Source of the DNA: Chloroflexota bacterium
GTDB taxonomy: Bacteria > Chloroflexota > Anaerolineae > UBA2200
Direction: 5' to 3'
DNA: 54,053 bases
Assembly (NCBI GenBank): GCA_014360905.1
Contig: JACIWW010000021.1
Location: 1 to 54,053 of the forward strand
The notes under the pieces are model-generated. The model had not been told where the DNA came from. It did no database searches and worked only from the letters and a program-made list of their open reading frames with translations. Of this stretch, positions 301 to 50,065 are shown piece after piece. Position numbers and translations under genes: made by a program. Each line of letters begins with the position of its first letter. The first letter of the stretch is position 1.

Positions 301-1866
<1,566 letters not shown>

Positions 1867-1944
1867 GGTGCATCTCCTTTCTCTGTGTTCTTCGCGTTCA
1901 TTTTTGGACTCCTTTCCATGAACTTTCGCCCACGACTTGAGCGC

Positions 1945-2060
1945 GCTAACGGCGCGGACGCTGCGCGTCCGCGCTAACGGTATCCGCTTCAGCTGCACGC
2001 GGAGCGATGGAGCGCAGCGACCGAGCGGAGCGTGTCGGCTCCAGCCGCATGTTATATAAC
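1945..2060. repeat. palindromic element, left border of the R-M island
   Basis: A GC-rich structured block begins CGCTAACGGCGCGGACG and ends GTTATATAAC. Bases 1952-1978 are an exact 27-base match to 4676-4702 at the other end of the island. Its right part (GTCGGCTCCA, then CCGCATG) resembles 4593-4611 in the right element. TAAC and GTTA ends around imperfect inverted arms recall integron attC sites, but no integrase gene is in the window and the core sites do not fit the consensus well. A REP- or MITE-like origin is equally possible. Confidence 0.6.
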
Positions 2061-2120
2061 CCGAACGAAGTGAGGGCGAGGAGCGAAGCGACGAAGCGTT
2101 CCGCCCGCCAGTCTTTTTCA

Positions 2121-3023
2121 TTATTTGTTTTTATCGTCATAATATTCTCCCAGTCTTTCAATTAAGCCAGTCGCTAATTCTCTGTAAGGAGTGCCATGTT
2201 GTGTCTTAAAATATGAAATCAAAAGTTTTAAAGTAGAACCCTCTCGGAATACTGTTTTTATAATTCCTTCATCCCATAATTTATCATTGTGCAAAATTTT
2301 TCTCCAACTTCTTAATTCCAAACCCTTGATTTCTTCAAAGCTTTCTTTCGGTGTCGTGTCGAAATTAATTTCTGGCAATTCTGGTAAACTGTCTTTCCAT
2401 TGTTTTAGCCATGAAAGAATATCATCCCATATTTCAGGATGCTCTAAATATTCAAATAATTCTTTGCCATAGAAAAGACGGATTTTAACGCCATAGAATT
2501 TTTTAAGTCTCTCAAGTTCTTGAAGATAATAATTTTTGTTTTTAGAAAGGTCAGGGTCAATGAAGTACATAAATCCGAATAGGGCTGAACCATGCTTTTT
2601 ATGCAAAATCTCAAGTTTCGTCTCAAAATTAGAGACTTGCCCTCGCTTTTTTGCAGAGTCGTGGTCATCTCTCACCTTTTGCTCAATGAAAAAATATACT
2701 TTCCCATCTGTAAAATACTGGTCCAATGATAACGTTTCGCCACTTTCATTTACAATGCTTTTAGACAAAATTTTAAAACCGAGAGACCTCAGTATTTCTT
2801 CTATAATTTCCTCAAGAGCATCACCCATGCGGATTTCATGGGATTGTAGAAGGTGTTGTAAGACTTTTGCCTGATTTATAATCTCCAAAGATGTTCTTTG
2901 TTTTAAAGTAAATAATTCTGAATTATGCAAAAATTCGTCTTCAGCAATTTTTCTTAACAAATCTAACTTTTCTGTCTCTAATATATGTTTATTTAAAATT
3001 TTGCAAAACGTTTCGTAATCCAT
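2121..3023 (-). CDS. type II restriction endonuclease, PD-(D/E)XK fold
   Basis: This 300-residue protein looks like a type II restriction enzyme that cleaves unmethylated DNA. A helical N-terminal half is followed by GDALEEIIEEIL, then LSLDQYF and VYFFIEQKVRDDHDS. These give a PD-(D/E)XK active site with D101 and the E114-x-K116 pair. The sequence around IEQKVRDDHDS recalls the HpyAIV/HinfI-type (GANTC) enzymes, but I am not certain and specificity should be treated as unassigned. Its ATG is one base beyond the stop of the gene at 3024-3749, so the three island genes form one unit in the order methyltransferase, nuclease-like protein, endonuclease. The gene is strongly AT-rich against a GC-rich genome, which indicates recent acquisition. 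Confidence 0.75.
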   Translation of the reverse strand: MDYETFCKILNKHILETEKLDLLRKIAEDEFLHNSELFTLKQRTSLEIINQAKVLQHLLQSHEIRMGDALEEIIEEILRSLGFKILSKSIVNESGETLSLDQYFTDGKVYFFIEQKVRDDHDSAKKRGQVSNFETKLEILHKKHGSALFGFMYFIDPDLSKNKNYYLQELERLKKFYGVKIRLFYGKELFEYLEHPEIWDDILSWLKQWKDSLPELPEINFDTTPKESFEEIKGLELRSWRKILHNDKLWDEGIIKTVFREGSTLKLLISYFKTQHGTPYRELATGLIERLGEYYDDKNK

Positions 3024-5085: not shown

Positions 5086-5208
5086 CCGTTCCTTCCCCGT
5101 TGACGGGGAGGGTCAGGGTAGAGTGGAGATGGGACTGGGGGTGAGGCAATCCGAGCGCTGAAGCGCTCACTACAAACCTGATGGCCGTCACTCAACTGTA
5201 GCGCATTG

Positions 5209-6018: not shown

Positions 6019-6400
6019 GGCTGGGCGTGGGAGCCCAGCCTGCATAGCCGGGGAATGAATTCCCCGGCTGAATGTGAGAAGCCCCTGAAGGGGCTTGGCA
6101 GTTTTAGCCAGGGATTTCAATCCCTGGCGTCCTTGAGCGCTGAAGCGCTCACTACAAACCCGCCAGGGGGAGGCGTGGGAGTCGCCTGGAGGATTTCAAT
6201 CCCTGGTGTCCATGAGCGCTGAAGCGCTCACTACAAACCCGCCAGGGGGAGGCGTGGGAGTCGCCTGGAGGATTTCGATCCCTGGCCTCCGCTCCGCGTG
6301 GGCAACAGCCCACGCGAAAAGCCCCCTCTCCTACGCTGTAGGAGAGGGGGCTGGGGGTGAGGTTATCCGCCTGGAGCGGGGAAGTGTGGCTCACGACAAA
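6019..6400. repeat. composite hairpin-mosaic repeat (prototype copy)
   Basis: This fills most of the 5887-6405 gap. Modules in order: GGCTGGGC hairpin (6019-6040); CCGGGGAA-TGAA-TTCCCCGG (6048-6067); AGCCCC-TGAA-GGGGCT (6080-6095); GCCAGGGAT-TTCA-ATCCCTGGC (6107-6128); GAGCGC-TGAA-GCGCTC (6135-6150) followed by ACTACAAACC. The last two modules plus a GGCG/CGCC hairpin then repeat as a near-identical 75-bp direct duplication (to about 6285). GTGGGC/GCCCAC and CTCTCCTAC/GTAGGAGAG hairpins follow. No ORF here has coding character. Confidence 0.85.
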
Positions 6401-9861: not shown

Positions 9862-10140
9862 TTTGCTCCCGGCGGACCACAGTCCGCTGCCATTCCCGGC
9901 GTGGGTTCGTAGTGAGCGCTTCAGCGCTCGGATTGTAGGTTTGTAGTGAGCGCTTCAGCGCTCGGATTGTAGGTTTGTAGTAAGCGCTTCAGCGCTCGGA
10001 TTGTAGGTTTGTAGTGAGCGCTTCAGCGCTCATGGATGCCAGGGATTGAAATCCCTGGCTAAAACTGCCAAGCCCCTTCAGGGGCTCCTCTTCAGCCGGG
10101 GAATTCATGCCCCAGCCAGGCCCACGCGAAGTGCGCACTA
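9862..10140. repeat. composite hairpin repeat, reverse orientation, with a 4-copy 34-bp tandem array
   Basis: This occupies the 9806-10166 gap. On the plus strand it reads GCGGACC/GTCCGC hairpin, then four tandem units of about 34 bp (9904-10031: GGTTTGTAGT, GAGCGC-TTCA-GCGCTC, GGATTGTA), then the CCAGGGAT hairpin, the AGCCCC-TTCA-GGGGCT hairpin and the GGGGAATTC hairpin. Its reverse complement matches 13975-14215 module for module, so the two form a long inverted pair around the genes between them. It lies inside the phage operon. Confidence 0.88.
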
Positions 10141-13974: not shown

Positions 13975-14215
13975 AGCATGGCTGGGGCATGAATTCCCCG
14001 GCTGAATGCGAAGCCCCTTCAGGGCCTTGTCAGTTTTAGTCAGGGATTTCAATCCTTGGTGTCCATGAGCGCTGAAGCGCTCACTACGAACCTACAATCC
14101 GAGCGCTGAAGCGCTCACTACAAACCTACAATCCGAGCGCTGAAGCGCTCACTACGAACCCACGCCAGGGATAACGGCGGACTGTGGTCCGCCGGGAGCT
14201 GGGCACGCAAGGAAG
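13975..14215. repeat. composite hairpin repeat, forward orientation
   Basis: Order: GGGGCATGAATTCCCC, AGCCCC-TTCA-GGGCC (a degenerate terminator-like module), CAGGGAT-TTCA-ATCCTTG, then three tandem GAGCGC-TGAA-GCGCTC units separated by ACTACRAACCTACAATCC, then CGGACTGTGGTCCG. It is the inverted partner of 9862-10140. An AAAAAAGGAGCATG string at its left edge looks like a start site, but the frame closes after four codons and GGAGCATGG belongs to the repeat. Confidence 0.85.
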
Positions 14216-25769: not shown

Positions 25770-26210
25770 CTGGTGCGGGTTTGTAGTGAGCGCTTCAGCG
25801 CTCATACGCGCCAGGGATTGAAATCCTTGCCTAAAAGGGAAAAGCCCCTAAAAAGGGCTTTTCACATTCAGTTGGGGAATTCACGCCCCGGCCATGCTCC
25901 AGGCGCACAACAGTCCGCTGTCATCTCTGGCGTAGGTTTGTAGTGAGCGCTTCAGCGCTCATACGCGCCAGGGATTGAAATCCTTGCCTAAAAGGGAAAA
26001 GCCCCTAAAAAGGGCTTCTCACATTCAGCTGGGGAATCCATTCCCCGGCCACGCTCCAGGCGCACTGAAGTGCGCACTACGAACCTGCACTGAAGGGGCT
26101 TCTCACATTCCGCCGGGAAATTCATTCCCAGGCCATGCTCCAGGCGCACTGAAGTGCGCACTACGAACCTGCCCCTGCTCCAGGCGCACAACAGTCCACC
26201 ATCTCCTGGC
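25770..26210. repeat. cluster of composite hairpin repeats (reverse orientation)
   Basis: Two nearly identical reverse-oriented units (25778-25896 and 25937-26056) carry GAGCGC-TTCA-GCGCTC, CGCGCCAGGGATTGAAATCC, AAAAGCCCCTAAAAAGGGCTTTT (a bidirectional terminator shape) and GGGGAATTC. Shorter GCGCAC-TGAA-GTGCGC / AGGGGCTTCTCACATTC / GGGAAATTCATTCCC units follow to 26190. The first terminator-like hairpin lies about 135 bases after the MFS stop and probably ends that operon. No gene is visible in 25721-26624. Confidence 0.85.
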
Positions 26211-26473: not shown

Positions 26474-26511
26474 CAAGAAACCAGGTTTCTGGGAGAAACC
26501 TGGTTTCTCCT
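26474..26511. repeat. AAACCAGGTTTCT hairpin repeat
   Basis: AAGAAACCAGGTTTCT and AGAAACCTGGTTTCT form overlapping palindromes; the same element recurs at 30880-30915 with one changed base (GGAAG for GGGAG). It is another dispersed family, here directly upstream of a promoter-like sequence. Confidence 0.75.
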
Positions 26512-28385: not shown

Positions 28386-30674
28386 CTACCGCGACCAGGT
28401 TGGCGCGATGCTGCTTTGTGAAGTAGCACTGGTCAACTTCACCATGGTCGTGCCGCGAGCAGGTGCGGCGTGAAGTTCGAAGTTGGGTGCATCGCCAACG
28501 ACCACGATGATGAACCGCCCATCAGGCGACCAGTCGGGGTAGGCAAACTGCGCAGCACCCGTCTCGCCAAAGGTCACCCGCCGTGAACGAGTCGGATCGC
28601 GCACATCCAGCACGCCAATGCCGCGTGTCAAACTGCCTCCCTCCGCGACAACCATTGTGTACACGATCTCGTTCCCCTGCGGTGACCATGTCCCATGGGC
28701 ATCCGAATAGGGATTGTTGGTCAGTTGGCTTTGTCTCCCGCTCGCGACATCGAGCAGGAACAGGTCATAGTTGCCGGTCTGGCGCGAAGTGTAGACGAGT
28801 TGCGTACTATCGGGAGACCAGGACGGGAAACTATCCCAAGTCTGATTGAAGGTGAGTTGTCGCGTCCGCCCCGTGCTCAATTCCAGCAGGTAAATCTCCC
28901 AGTCTCCATCGGCATTGGAGACATAGGCAATCCACTGGCCATTGGGAGACCACACAGGGTGGACTTCGTCTCCCCTGAAGTCGGTGATCTGTTGCCATCC
29001 ACTGCCATCCGCGTTCATGATGTAGAGGTCAGTGTCGCCGACCCCACGGTAGGCAAAGACGATGCGGCGGCGATCTGGCGACCAACTGGGGTCGGCTTCA
29101 TCTCCTGGCGCACTGGTCAAGCGCATGCGACCAGTGCCATCCGGGTTGATGCGGTAGATATCCTGAGTGCCTGCCTCATCCGAGACGAAGAGAATCGGCG
29201 CAGAGGCGACCTCGGTTGGGGCCAAGAAGAACTCACTTGCCCATCCTGTCAGCCCTGTGCTCAGCATGCGCACGTTGTACCAGAAGCGAGCGCCATCCCA
29301 TTGCGGAGCCTGTAGCACATCGAGCACGCTGCCCAGCGGCATCTCCGTCACTACAGCATAATCCAGCCCTGGGCCAGTGCGCAAGTTGAGCCTTTCGACA
29401 CCGAGCACGACCATGCGCCTGCCCGTGCCCGGTTCGGGCGTCGGCTGGGGCGTCCACACCGGCCGCGGGGCAATCTTGGCTCTGGGCAACAGCTCAGTGA
29501 CCCGGTTGCTTGGCCGCAGCAAAGTTAGTTGCTCCCTTCTCCCTGGTCCGACGAACTCGACCTTGCTGATAACACCTATCTGCTCGCCCTGCTTATTGAT
29601 CGCCATGCCCCCGCTGTGTCCGTAACTGGCCAGCGCATCGGTCTTGATCCAATCACGATCGAATGTAACTACCCCGCCTTCCGTCCAGGAGAGCGTGTCT
29701 TTGGCATAATCCGGGTAACCTAGCAGGATAATGCGATCGCCTCGACGCACTTGCTCACTGTTGCCCAGGGGGATGGACGGTAAGTTCAACGAGCCACGAA
29801 TAGGAGTCTGTCCATCCTCATAGGTTACGATCTGCAGGAAAGCCAGGTCAAGTACGGGGTCAGAAGCAGACCTCAGCACCTGAGCCCAGTAGGAGAGGCG
29901 CGGCTCATCGTCCGGGTCCAGAGTGCAGAAAACAGCTACCAATTCGCCTTCGGGCGAACGTCCGTTATCGTCGGCGACGACATGCCAATTGGTAAGCAGC
30001 AAGCCCTGCTGTCCGTCCACGATCGAAGCGGAGCCCCCTTGCCCCAAGGCAGGAAACTCCAACCGCACCACCGAGAGAGCAGCCCTGCGTATGATAGCCT
30101 GGATATCCGGCGGAGGTGGAGGAGTTGCGGTTGGGATGGCGGTAGGTGTGGGGGTAGGTGCCAGAACCCAGAAAGACGCCGATGCCACTGGGCGCTCCTC
30201 GATGAACAGATCCAGCCGATAGACGCCAGGGGCTAAGCCAGTCGGCTCTGTGAAGGGGGCTGTATAGGCATCGCCAGAGGCAGCGTTGAGGTACACATCC
30301 CAGGTAAATGAGTCACAGGAGCGCAGCGCATTGTCAAAGTACCAGCAGTACTTCCATGGCAAGCCATGGCGCATGTTGTGATAGCTCCATTGTGCGTACA
30401 CCGTGTCGGTGCCAGCGGGAAAGCTGGTGCCAGGGTTCTTCACTCGCACGCCAGACTCGAGTTCGGTGCCAAAGACGATATGACTGAACATAGCAACCGG
30501 GGTTGCGGAAGCAGTGGGCGTGTTAGTAGGGATGGGAGTATTCGTGGCGGTAGGCAATGGAGTAGGCGTGGGTGTAGGAGTTCCTTGCTGGCAGCACACC
30601 AGGGCCAATAGCATCGTTACAAGCAGGGTGAGAACAAGCAAAACATAAACCGGTTTTCTGTGCAAGTCTATCAT
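28386..30674 (-). CDS. lipoprotein: trypsin-like serine protease + SH3b + TolB-like propeller
   Basis: This is a 762-residue exported protein. ATG 30674 is chosen (GGAGG 6 bases upstream). Hydrophobic residues 8-26 end in LALVC-C, a likely lipobox with lipidated C27 or C28. A Thr-Pro linker (~32-60), a beta-sandwich-like region with three Cys (~62-172) and a second TP linker follow. Residues ~190-400 are an S1C/HtrA-like protease with H231 (TNWHVVAD), D276 (PVLDLAF) and S354 (GHSGGM), so the triad is complete. An SH3b domain covers ~424-487 (LNLRTGPGLDYAVV). Residues ~493-762 are about six PD40/TolB-type propeller blades (DIYRINPDGTGRMRLTS, PSWSPDRRRIVFAYR). No PDZ domain is present. It probably acts on the cell surface, with SH3b for wall binding and the propeller for substrate recognition. 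Confidence 0.87.
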   Translation of the reverse strand: MIDLHRKPVYVLLVLTLLVTMLLALVCCQQGTPTPTPTPLPTATNTPIPTNTPTASATPVAMFSHIVFGTELESGVRVKNPGTSFPAGTDTVYAQWSYHNMRHGLPWKYCWYFDNALRSCDSFTWDVYLNAASGDAYTAPFTEPTGLAPGVYRLDLFIEERPVASASFWVLAPTPTPTAIPTATPPPPPDIQAIIRRAALSVVRLEFPALGQGGSASIVDGQQGLLLTNWHVVADDNGRSPEGELVAVFCTLDPDDEPRLSYWAQVLRSASDPVLDLAFLQIVTYEDGQTPIRGSLNLPSIPLGNSEQVRRGDRIILLGYPDYAKDTLSWTEGGVVTFDRDWIKTDALASYGHSGGMAINKQGEQIGVISKVEFVGPGRREQLTLLRPSNRVTELLPRAKIAPRPVWTPQPTPEPGTGRRMVVLGVERLNLRTGPGLDYAVVTEMPLGSVLDVLQAPQWDGARFWYNVRMLSTGLTGWASEFFLAPTEVASAPILFVSDEAGTQDIYRINPDGTGRMRLTSAPGDEADPSWSPDRRRIVFAYRGVGDTDLYIMNADGSGWQQITDFRGDEVHPVWSPNGQWIAYVSNADGDWEIYLLELSTGRTRQLTFNQTWDSFPSWSPDSTQLVYTSRQTGNYDLFLLDVASGRQSQLTNNPYSDAHGTWSPQGNEIVYTMVVAEGGSLTRGIGVLDVRDPTRSRRVTFGETGAAQFAYPDWSPDGRFIIVVVGDAPNFELHAAPARGTTMVKLTSATSQSSIAPTWSR

Positions 30675-30858: not shown

Positions 30859-30879
30859 ATTCAGAGCAAAAATCAACAA

Positions 30880-31340
30880 GAAACCAGGTTTCTGGAAGAA
30901 ACCTGGTTTCTTGCTCCAGGGGCCGGGGAATCCATTCCCCGGCCACGCTCCAGGCGCACTGAAGTGCGCACTACGAACCTGTACTGAAGGGGCTTCTCAT
31001 CTTCAGCCAGGGAATTCATTCCCCGGCCATGCTCCAGGCGCACTGAAGTGCGCACTACGAACCTGTACTGAAGGGGCTTCTTATCTTCAGCCGGGGAATT
31101 CATTCCCCGGCCACGCTCCAGGCGCACTGAAGTGCGCACTACGAACCTGCCCCTAAAAAGGGCTTCTCACATTCAGCTGGGGAATCCATTCCCCGGCCAC
31201 GCTCCAGGCGCACTGAAGTGCGCACTACGAACCTGCACTGAAGGGGCTTCTCATCTTCAGCCAGGGAATTCATTCCCCGGCCATGCCCTGCAATCCCACT
31301 TGCTCCGGGCGGACCACAGTCCGCCGTCTTTTTGCGTGGG
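30880..31340. repeat. composite hairpin repeats, GCGCAC type
   Basis: This fills 30859-31365. It starts with the AAACCAGGTTTCT palindrome (30880-30915), then five near-identical units of GGGGAATTCATTCCCC, GGCCAYGCTCCAG, GCGCAC-TGAA-GTGCGC, ACTACGAACCTG and AGGGGCTTCT. One unit has the AAAAAGGGCTT variant. It ends with GGCGGAC/GTCCGCC and GTGGGC/GTCCAC hairpins. No gene is seen in this stretch. Confidence 0.88.
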
Positions 31341-34377: not shown

Positions 34378-34665
34378 GCAGGTTCGTAGTGCGCACTTCA
34401 GTGCGCCTGTAGCAGGTTCGTAGTGCGCACTTCAGTGCAGCAGGTTCGTAGTGCGCACTTCAGTGCGCCTGTAGCAGGTTCGTAGTGCGCACTTCAGTGC
34501 AGCAGGTTCGTAGTGCGCACTTCAGTGCGCATGGAGCGTGGCCGGGGCGTGAATTCCCCAGCTGAATGTGAAAAGCCCTTTTTAGGGGCTTTTCCCTTTT
34601 AGGCAAGGATTTCAATCCCTGGCGCGTATGAGCGCTGAAGCGCTCACTACGAACCCACGCCAGAG
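34378..34665. repeat. five-copy GCGCAC hairpin array plus composite repeat
   Basis: 34378-34530 is a tandem array of GCAGGTTCGTAGT, GCGCAC-TTCA-GTGC(GC) units in alternating 34- and 27-29-base lengths. A composite unit follows: GGGGCGTGAATTCCCC, AAAAGCCCTTTTTAGGGGCTTTT, AAGGATTTCAATCC, GAGCGC-TGAA-GCGCTC. The remaining 34666-34923 holds no recognisable feature except a TATACT (34873) that may be the -10 of the lepA stump. Confidence 0.88.
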
Positions 34666-40619: not shown

Positions 40620-41640
40620 CGAAGCAATCTCGTTGGTGATGAGCATAGCCGGGGAACGAATAAACGAATCACCGCAGCGTCATTCGATGATTCGTTTTTC
40701 CTATTCGTTGATGGCTTTCCCCTGTAACAGTCCACGCCAAAAGACGGCGGACTTTTGTCCGCCTGGAGCAGTTGAAGTGATGGCCATCAACGGATGGGAG
40801 AACGAATCACTGCAGCGCAGCAGGTTGGGCTCCCATGCCCAGCTAGCATAGCCAGGGCGTGAATTCCCCAGCTGAATGTGAGAAGCCCTTGAAAGGGGCA
40901 GCAGGTTCGTAGTGCGCACTTCAGTGCGCCTGGAGCGTGGCCGGGGCGTGAATTCCCCAGCTGAATGTGAAAAGCCCCTGAAAGGGGCTTTTCCCTTTTT
41001 AGCCAGGGATTTCAATACCTGGCGCCCATGAGCGCTGAAACGCTCACTACAAACTCACCCAGGAGGAGCCGCCCCTGCAAAGGCACAGCAGGCTGGGCTC
41101 CCACGCCCAGCCTGCATGGCCGGGGATTGCAATCCCTGGCATCTGCTCCACGTGGACAACAGCCCACGCAAAAAGCCCCTCTCCTACAGCGTAGGAGAGG
41201 GGCCAGGAGGTGAGGCAATCCGAGCGCTGAAGCGCTCACTACAAACCCGCCAGGAGGCGGCGGACTGTGGTCCGCCGGGAGCAGGTGGAGCGATGGCCAT
41301 CAACGAATGGAGGAACGAATAAACGAATCACCGCAGAGCAGCAGGCTGGGCTCCCACGCTCAGCCAGCATGGCTGGGGATTGCAATCCCTGGCACCTGCT
41401 CGGCGTGGACAACAGTCCACGCAAAAAGCCCTTCTCCTACAGCGTAGGAGAGGGGGCCTGAGGTGAGGCAATCCAAGCGCTGAAGCGCTCACTACAAACC
41501 CGCCAGGAGGCGGCGGACTGTTGTCCGCCTGAAGCAGTGTGACGATGGCCGTCAACGAATGGGGAACGAATAAACGAATTCGTTTTGGCATAGCCATTCG
41601 TTGAGGGCATGGTGCAAGGGGAACGAATCAATACATCCCA
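40620..41640. repeat. dense mosaic of dispersed hairpin repeats
   Basis: This fills most of 40425-41840. Besides the composite unit (40855-41060: GGGGCGTGAATTCCCC, AAAAGCCCCTGAAAGGGGCTTTT, CCAGGGATTTCAATACCTGG, GAGCGC-TGAA-ACGCTC), it holds two long partial duplications (about 41085-41330 and 41335-41580) with GGCTGGGC hairpins, GATTGCAATC, GTGGAC/GTCCAC, CTCTCCTACAGCGTAGGAGAG, GAGCGCTGAAGCGCTC and GGCGGAC/GTCCGCC. It also has at least four copies of a GCCATCAACGAATGG..GAACGAATAAACGAAT family (40660-40715, 40780-40810, 41290-41330, 41545-41610). No coding ORF is convincing here. Confidence 0.85.
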
Positions 41641-47285: not shown

Positions 47286-47930
47286 GCGAGTGTGGCCGGG
47301 GAATAAATTCCCTGGCTGAATGCGAAAAGCCCCTGAAAGGGGCTTTTCATTTTTAGCCAGGGATTGCAATCCCTGGCACCCATGAGCGCTGAAGCGCTCA
47401 CTACGAACCCGCACCAGGGATGACGGCGGACTGTTGTCAGCAGGTTCGTAGTGCGCACTTCAGTGCGCCTGGAGCATGGCCGGGGCGTGAATTCCCCAGC
47501 TGAATGTGAAAAGCCCTTTTTAGGGGCTTTTCCTTTTTAGGCAAGGATTTCAATCCCTGGCGTCCATGAGCGCTGAAGCGCTCACTACGAACCCACGCCA
47601 GAGATGACAGCGGACTGTTGTGCGCCAGGAGCATGGCCGGGGCGTGAATTCCCCAGCTGAAGATGAGAAGCCCCTTCAGTACAGGTTCGTAGTGCGCACC
47701 TCAGTGCACCTGGAGCATGGCCGGGGCGTGAATTCCCCGGCAGAATGTGAAAAGCCCTTTTTAGGGGCTTTTCCTTTTTAGCCAGGGATTTCAATCCCTG
47801 GCATCCATGAGCGCTGAAGCGCTCACTACGAACCCACGCCAGAGATGACAGCGGACTGTGGTCCGCCTGGAGCAAGGACCTCACCCCCGGCCCCCTCTCC
47901 TGCTGCAGGAGAGGGGGTAGCGTGTAGTGT
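47286..47930. repeat. three consecutive composite hairpin repeats
   Basis: The first unit is textbook: AAAAGCCCCTGAAAGGGGCTTTT (47325-47347), GCCAGGGATTGCAATCCCTGGC (47356-47377), GAGCGC-TGAA-GCGCTC (47384-47399). Two more full units follow at about 47475-47600 and 47715-47870, separated by GCAGGTTCGTAGTGCGCAC hairpins and GCGGACTGTGGTCCGC. The block ends in a CTCTCCTGCTGCAGGAGAG hairpin near 47900. From 47931 to the promoter at 48080 nothing else is recognised. Confidence 0.9.
47325..47347. terminator. bidirectional intrinsic terminator supplied by the composite repeat
   Basis: AAAAGCCCC-TGAAA-GGGGCTTTT has a seven-to-eleven-base stem with A and T runs on both sides, so it can terminate transcription on either strand. 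It lies 40 bases after the protease stop. Equivalent modules sit near 25855, 26010, 34580, 40990, 47520 and 47765. Confidence 0.65.
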
Positions 47931-49914: not shown

Positions 49915-50065
49915 CTCCCGGCGGACCACAGTCCGCCGTCTTTGGGCGGGTTTGTAGTGAGCGCTTCAGCGCTCATGGATGCCAGGGATTGAAATCCCTG
50001 GCTAAAAGCAACAAGCCCCTTCAGGGGCTTCGCACATTCAGCCGGGGAATTCATTCCCCGGCCAT
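49915..50065. repeat. composite hairpin repeat, reverse orientation
   Basis: Order on the plus strand: GGCGGAC/GTCCGCC, GGTTTGTAGT + GAGCGC-TTCA-GCGCTC, GCCAGGGATTGAAATCCCTGGC, AAGCCCC-TTCA-GGGGCTT, CCGGGGAA-TTCA-TTCCCCGG. A CATTGCGAGCCGCCACAGGC string just before it (49878) is a further dispersed element. The 50066-50202 stretch shows no feature. Confidence 0.85.

Follow-up and report, generated by a model that had tools for sequence, protein, structure and literature searches.

Why do hairpins with dissimilar stems share the same four-letter centre in the intergenic DNA of a Chloroflexota genome? The window, that is, the whole stretch of 54,053 nucleotides analysed here, is contig C21 of a 2.83-Mb genome (G000) in 49 contigs. 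An initial annotation described a chain of five unrelated hairpins with a TGAA/TTCA centre in almost every intergenic gap. It attributed the shared centre to a process such as a TnpA-REP-like enzyme or to an RNA tetraloop, and proposed checking the hairpins for a loop preference and the genome for a REP-associated transposase (RAYT). Counting perfect hairpins whose stem is 6 or longer and whose loop is 4 gave 81 in the window, and the loop was TTCA/TGAA in 39 of them. In 100 dinucleotide shuffles of the window, the mean number of hairpins was 15.6 (maximum 25) and that of TTCA/TGAA loops was 0.08 (maximum 1). The hairpins are real and well beyond chance expectation, and the loop preference is confirmed. 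The letters of the four hairpins at 6046-6151 matched the description exactly, the fifth (GCGCAC-TGAA-GTGCGC) was present at other sites as reported, and the chain was seen again in both orientations at all the places listed. "Almost every gap" was an overstatement for about 12 clusters in 54 kb. The five hairpins are not unrelated either, as all are parts of one 149-bp element and its truncated copies; fragments of one longer element were the outcome that the annotation itself had named as contrary to its reading.

The GAGCGC hairpin (A1) and the GCGCAC hairpin (A2) are two arms of one family with the foot GTTYGTAGT, a six-pair stem, and the loop TTYA; the first stem pair lies one nucleotide past GTAG. 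The stem letters of the arms do vary, as had been claimed, but the two arms have this 9-nt foot in common. GCCAGGGAT and GCCGGGGAA appear to be versions of a single hairpin. The common centre is strict in the GTAG-footed family, but as TTYA, and other hairpins deviate from it. The centres TCCA, TGCA, TTTTTAG, and CGTGAATT were also found in the middle hairpins of the chain, and AACA/CACA loops on other hairpins of the window.

The element statistics of this genome were obtained from 378 kb of repeat-rich contigs and from whole-genome pattern searches. The foot alone was matched 126 times in the 378 kb and was followed in 115 cases by a hairpin in which 5 or all 6 of the pairs form. The loops of these 115 arms were TTCA (98) or TTTA (14), giving 112 TTYA. 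In other genomes, the same foot preceded 31 different stems with the loop TTYA at 61 of 65 places, most of which were retrieved by a pattern that already includes the loop. A total of 41 different arm stems were seen. Among 117 distinct elements picked by foot and loop only, with the stem ignored, 89.6% of the stem positions were paired, compared with 61.7% when the 3' arms were shuffled (highest of 1000 shuffles, 66.8%). The stem thus varies while remaining paired, and foot and loop do not change. This accounts for the unrelated stems with the same centre. The foot-plus-loop pattern had 123 matches in the 2.83-Mb genome and none in the control, and was present in 19 of 60 relatives, some of which had just 1-2 matches at chance level. 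Only 1 of the 117 arms lay inside a main ORF, though ORFs make up 80% of the sequence. With GTAG at the hairpin foot, a stem of 6 bp, a 4-nt loop, and many extragenic copies, the arms have the features of GTAG REPs.

Several arms of the sister species G001 (contig C6; L268 4190-4818) carry the insert CCTTCGCCCGCGCTCAGGGCAAGC directly before the TTCA loop, which lengthens the hairpin. The arms of G000 are concentrated in the higher-GC contigs C9, C12, C13, C16, C21, C23, and C40 (GC approximately 0.57-0.60), and the arm-poor contigs C1-C8, C10, C11, C14, and C15 have a GC of 0.51-0.56. A binning effect or chimeric bin, or a genomic compartment, was considered as the source of the arm-rich contigs. 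Against a chimeric bin, arm-rich and arm-poor contigs alike align to the sister species, where the distribution of arms over contigs is similarly uneven.

Most of the 19 head-out arm pairs were either 51-55 bp or 149 bp long. The paired arms were nearly always one A2 and one A1 with the feet outward. The long form has 11 copies, all of exactly 149 bp except one of 150 bp, and 5 of them are in the window. Its order, A2, C2, D, C1, and inverted A1, is well conserved among copies. Two inverted REPs and a spacer are thus present as a discrete unit, as in a REPIN. We consider it very likely that the hairpin chain is this 149-base miniature mobile element, a REPIN, together with its broken copies. 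The short form beside the RAYT described below folds as two hairpins on a common stem in single-stranded DNA. The chains other than full copies are truncations and tandem duplications. The copies in the window are as follows.

47685-47833, + strand: full-length 149-bp REPIN with arm A2 (GTTCGTAGT-GCGCAC-loop), C2, D, C1, and inverted A1 (GAGCGC; ACTACGAAC); single-stranded DNA fold of the long form, z = -8.3
47444-47592, + strand: full-length 149-bp REPIN
40905-41054, + strand: full-length REPIN, 150 bp
34506-34654, + strand: full-length 149-bp REPIN; more A2 arms ahead at 34382-34502
25936-26084, - strand: full-length 149-bp REPIN, A1 arm first
6047-6159, + strand: truncated copy C2-D-C1-A1, A2 arm absent; the chain that the initial annotation had read best
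6214-6238, - strand: A1 arm within a 79-bp tandem duplication (6112-6190 / 6191-6269)
5153-5177, - strand: single A1 arm
9905-10031, + strand: four tandem A1 arms at 34-bp spacing, then C1-D-C2 (from 10038)
13981-14159, - strand: C2-D-(C1), then three tandem A1 arms
25779-25803, + strand: A1 arm of a copy with the A2 arm missing or degraded
30922-31283, - strand: four tandem units of A2 arm and C2 at 84-86 bp spacing
41222-41246, - strand: A1 arm; another A1 arm at 41475-41499
47295-47408, + strand: truncated copy C2-D-C1-A1
49950-50062, + strand: truncated copy A1-C1-D-C2

Orthologous gaps in the two genomes, G001 and this one, often differ in whether they contain elements; one such gap is 100 bp long and armless in one genome and 629 bp long with nine arms in the other. 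This shows the turnover of the element, not its agent; the intergenic sequence is too diverged between the two species to fix exact insertion junctions. The elements had no match in phage or plasmid collections. The window also contains a 132-bp tandem repeat of approximately ten copies (358-1729) inside the ORF at 301-2121 (- strand), and a further dispersed palindrome, AGAAACCAGGTTTCT-N3-AGAAACCTGGTTTCT, at 26476-26508 and 30877-30913.

Which enzyme could move the arms? A PF01797 search of this genome found two Y1 genes and missed the gene described here. Both lack A arms at their sides and were rejected as the enzyme for the arms. A RAYT of the relative G035 adjoins a 21-copy array of GTAGT-stem-TTYA hairpins and was used as the query. 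It revealed a 201-aa homologue in G000 on contig C16, 60502-61107 (48% identity, E = 4e-61). The C16 protein matches REP_Tyr_transpos (NCBIfam) above the cutoff, and its G035 relative has a match to the E. coli TnpA_REP of known structure (4ER8; E = 1.4e-6). The motifs of the C16 protein are NHYH and YIHYNPVKH; the latter is largely kept in the clade, with YxHxN common to relatives. In six aligned RAYTs, NHYH is invariant and PxHxPPH is present. The gene is surrounded by 11 A arms, 3 upstream and 8 downstream, all within 400 nt, and several of them are head-out A2/A1 pairs a few bases apart. HUH and tyrosine motifs, the REP_Tyr_transpos profile, and its own REP family on the flanks identify the gene as a RAYT. 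The search proposed by the initial annotation found a RAYT with matching hairpins on both sides in the same genome, and its guess of a TnpA-REP-like enzyme is upheld for the outer arms. Partial matches to the RAYT profile below the cutoff at C12:58175-58774 and C16:154-330 of G000 are possibly decayed or distant copies.

The survey of the RAYT clade covered 60 relatives and 400 genomes sampled from the phylum. GTAGT-stem-TTYA hairpins flanked 12 of 13 close RAYTs, the C16 gene included, versus 0 of 34 distant Y1 genes (Fisher, 2.5e-10). The 13th close homologue (L286) has a degenerate hairpin directly upstream of the gene. Mapped on the RAYT tree, the flank label requires 2 changes, compared with 10.3 when shuffled. 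The flanking stems vary by genome (AACGAC, AACGGC, GCCGAC, and others), and the stems of the two paired arms differ in most of these genomes. This link between the RAYT clade and the foot and loop in the DNA favours a DNA-level cause of the shared centre over the RNA tetraloop. In G018, G004, and G044, which are rich in GTTYGTAGT hairpins, no close RAYT was found; either arms persist or spread without a close RAYT there, or the assemblies miss the gene.

The inner hairpins have a different distribution. G001 has the C and D hairpins in a unit of their own, C1-D-F-C2, which is 112-116 bp long with constant stems and variable spacers; an A arm lies within 60 nt of only 1 of the 41 C hairpins there. 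The loops of C1, D, and F in G001 read TTYA or the reverse complement of it, and it is again the third position that varies between C and T; C loops are also TTGA, TCCA, and TGCA. In G000, the C unit minus F lies between the two arms and gives a 99-bp spacer. The C and D hairpins are without a GTAG foot. No RAYT flanked by C hairpins was found in the RAYT search, and in the 60 relatives the C-hairpin pattern was limited to this genus and one match in G035. At several loci of G001 (L266, L271, L273-L277), the C-D-F-C unit lies within a longer dispersed repeat with the flanks GACGGCGGCGTTTGCCATTGAGCCT and GGCATCTGCGCCTGGGCTCCCATGC. Known REP dimers have structured spacers with small stem-loops, and REPs are associated with other palindromes, according to PMC3733652. 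Template switching can yield loop inversions and paired stem changes (PMC8794818), and we offer it as a mere suggestion for such changes here.

The initial annotation in its strong version would make all hairpins, C and D included, independent substrates of the same RAYT that were assembled singly. The TTYA-type loops of C1, D, and F in the sister species, with their C/T variation at the third position, agree with this. We regard it as unlikely, given that C and D have no GTAG foot, that C loops are not confined to TTYA, that no RAYT has C hairpins on its flanks, and that the length of 149 bp is fixed in 10 of 11 full copies. The fixed length indicates instead that the composite spreads as one unit. 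Such a unit, with imperfect inverted ends of approximately 25 bp and a length of 149 bp, might be a DDE-transposase MITE in which the outer arms serve as terminal inverted repeats. This is hardly credible here: single arms and 51-55-bp forms are also abundant, each end is a GTAG-footed hairpin in its own right, and it is a Y1 enzyme, not a DDE enzyme, that lies amid the arms in 12 genomes.

The hairpins could also be terminators or mRNA-stabilising 3' structures under host selection, spread by recombination or duplication with no transposase. Such roles are possible for known REPs, according to PMC3733652 and PMC6006769, and the extragenic position of the arms, their strong single-strand folds, and the frequent G-T pairs at the outermost stem pair are in line with them. 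Arm-holding gaps are similar between divergent genes (7 in 10.0 kb) and convergent genes (7 in 8.3 kb), which is unexpected for terminators, and the elements have no Rfam match. The sizes of 51-55 and 149 bp, the 9-nt foot outside the stem, and the tight link to one RAYT clade would also be left unexplained. We consider host-selected structures of this kind very improbable.

We are largely confident that a REPIN and a trans-acting RAYT explain the chains. The REPIN would be a non-autonomous element of two inverted GTAG-footed REP hairpins with feet outward, which the RAYT, a Y1 HUH transposase, would copy through the genome in trans on single-stranded DNA. For each arm, the RAYT would recognise two features, the foot (GTAG, or more exactly GTAGT) and a TTNA loop carried by a paired stem. 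The stem letters would matter little while paired, so that stems could drift with foot and loop fixed, and one element could have two arms with different stems. In Marinomonas TnpA_REP, a mismatch-free stem and the loop TTNA are needed, with T, T, and A essential and the third base free, and a swap of the whole stem has only a moderate effect (PMC8266576). The loops TTCA and TTTA fit this rule, which leads us to infer recognition of foot plus loop by the C16 RAYT. The letters of the stem may still play a part, since stems are common within one genus. The association of gene and arms suggests that the C16 RAYT cuts and moves the arms via a single-stranded intermediate. The spacer was probably widened to 99 bp by the entry of the second multi-hairpin unit (C2-D-C1) between the arms, and the 149-bp form would then have been amplified. 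Truncation and tandem duplication would have produced the remaining chains.

A second RAYT of the same genome is on contig C23 (12044-12607; L001 1459-2022). It has E hairpins on both sides, with the foot GCTC, a stem of 7-8, and the loop AACA, which occur around it in both orientations. Well-paired E copies with AACA/CACA loops numbered 71, with ten stems, in the 378 kb. The C23 family is a non-GTAG-foot family of the same design, in which foot and loop are constant and the stem is variable. Its copies in the window are as follows.

99-152, no strand assigned: pair of E-family hairpins (GCTC foot, CACA/AACA loop)
Near 6289, 13354, 14194, 41278, 41400, 49913, and 54033: more E-family copies

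A third RAYT (HYH) on contig C7 of G000, 29047-29538, has a TGGAYTGCTGAAGC hairpin on each side and no A, C, or E hairpins on its flanks.

These families are a natural experiment on RAYT recognition, in which foot and loop are fixed phylum-wide but the stem is exchanged; SELEX on a single Marinomonas enzyme agrees with this. The second, non-GTAG pair makes the foot/loop code directly testable with two enzymes in one genome. It is possible, if short of probable, that the RAYTs of this phylum read a stem-independent two-part "address" (foot plus loop), that the codes GTAGT/TTYA and GCTC/AACA coexist in one genome, and that foreign multi-hairpin units with matching loops could thus be captured between arms and co-amplified as composites. 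The element is also an example of a REPIN becoming composite with another repeat inside. For annotation, such chains in Chloroflexota MAGs are most likely copies or debris of mobile elements, not regulatory arrays, until shown otherwise.

The initial annotation knew of no described family of this design, but GTAG REPs, REPINs, and RAYTs are already described, and a TTTA loop with these required bases was measured in Marinomonas (PMC8266576). No description of this family in this lineage was found in the openly licensed literature. Like the REPINs of Pseudomonas fluorescens SBW25 (PMC3116915), the element is extragenic and consists of two inverted REPs with conserved ends, separated by a spacer that forms hairpins, and it occurs in tandem clusters, one of them beside the cognate RAYT. 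Unlike those REPINs, its arms differ in their stems, its tag is GTTYGTAGT, and one size class has a 99-bp three-hairpin spacer. It shares the GTAG foot, 6-9 bp stems, different stems, and spacers with small stem-loops with the GTAG REP head-head heterodimers of PMC3733652, which also records GTAG REPs for a Chloroflexi species, T. roseum. Neither this combination of stem and loop nor this lineage was found in the passages of that source consulted, and unlike the GTAG REP families there, the element here has a spacer that occurs in the sister species as a separate dispersed unit.

Marinomonas REPtron Mb has the same loop rule (TTNA), an unmismatched stem, and a minor role of the stem letters; the rule is biochemical there, whereas here it is read from natural variation in another phylum (PMC8266576). 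For E. coli, the same source states that TnpA_REP needs GTAG and a stem bulge and that the loop letters are not specific. E. coli BIMEs, as described there, are likewise mosaics of different REP types in inverted pairs, but here the stems have no bulge and the loop is fixed. A small subclass of HYH RAYTs with GTAG REP flanks has been described, TnpA_Y1 subclass 2.8 (PMC6006769). The C16 RAYT resembles it in the HYH motif, the proline-containing N-terminus, and the GT[AG]G REP flanks, a comparison based on the published description; unlike the host of the C16 RAYT, that subclass was described from Cyanobacteria in the sample of that study. REPs, head-head heterodimers, REPINs, and RAYTs are known, and the composite spacer and the second foot/loop code are the less ordinary parts of this system.
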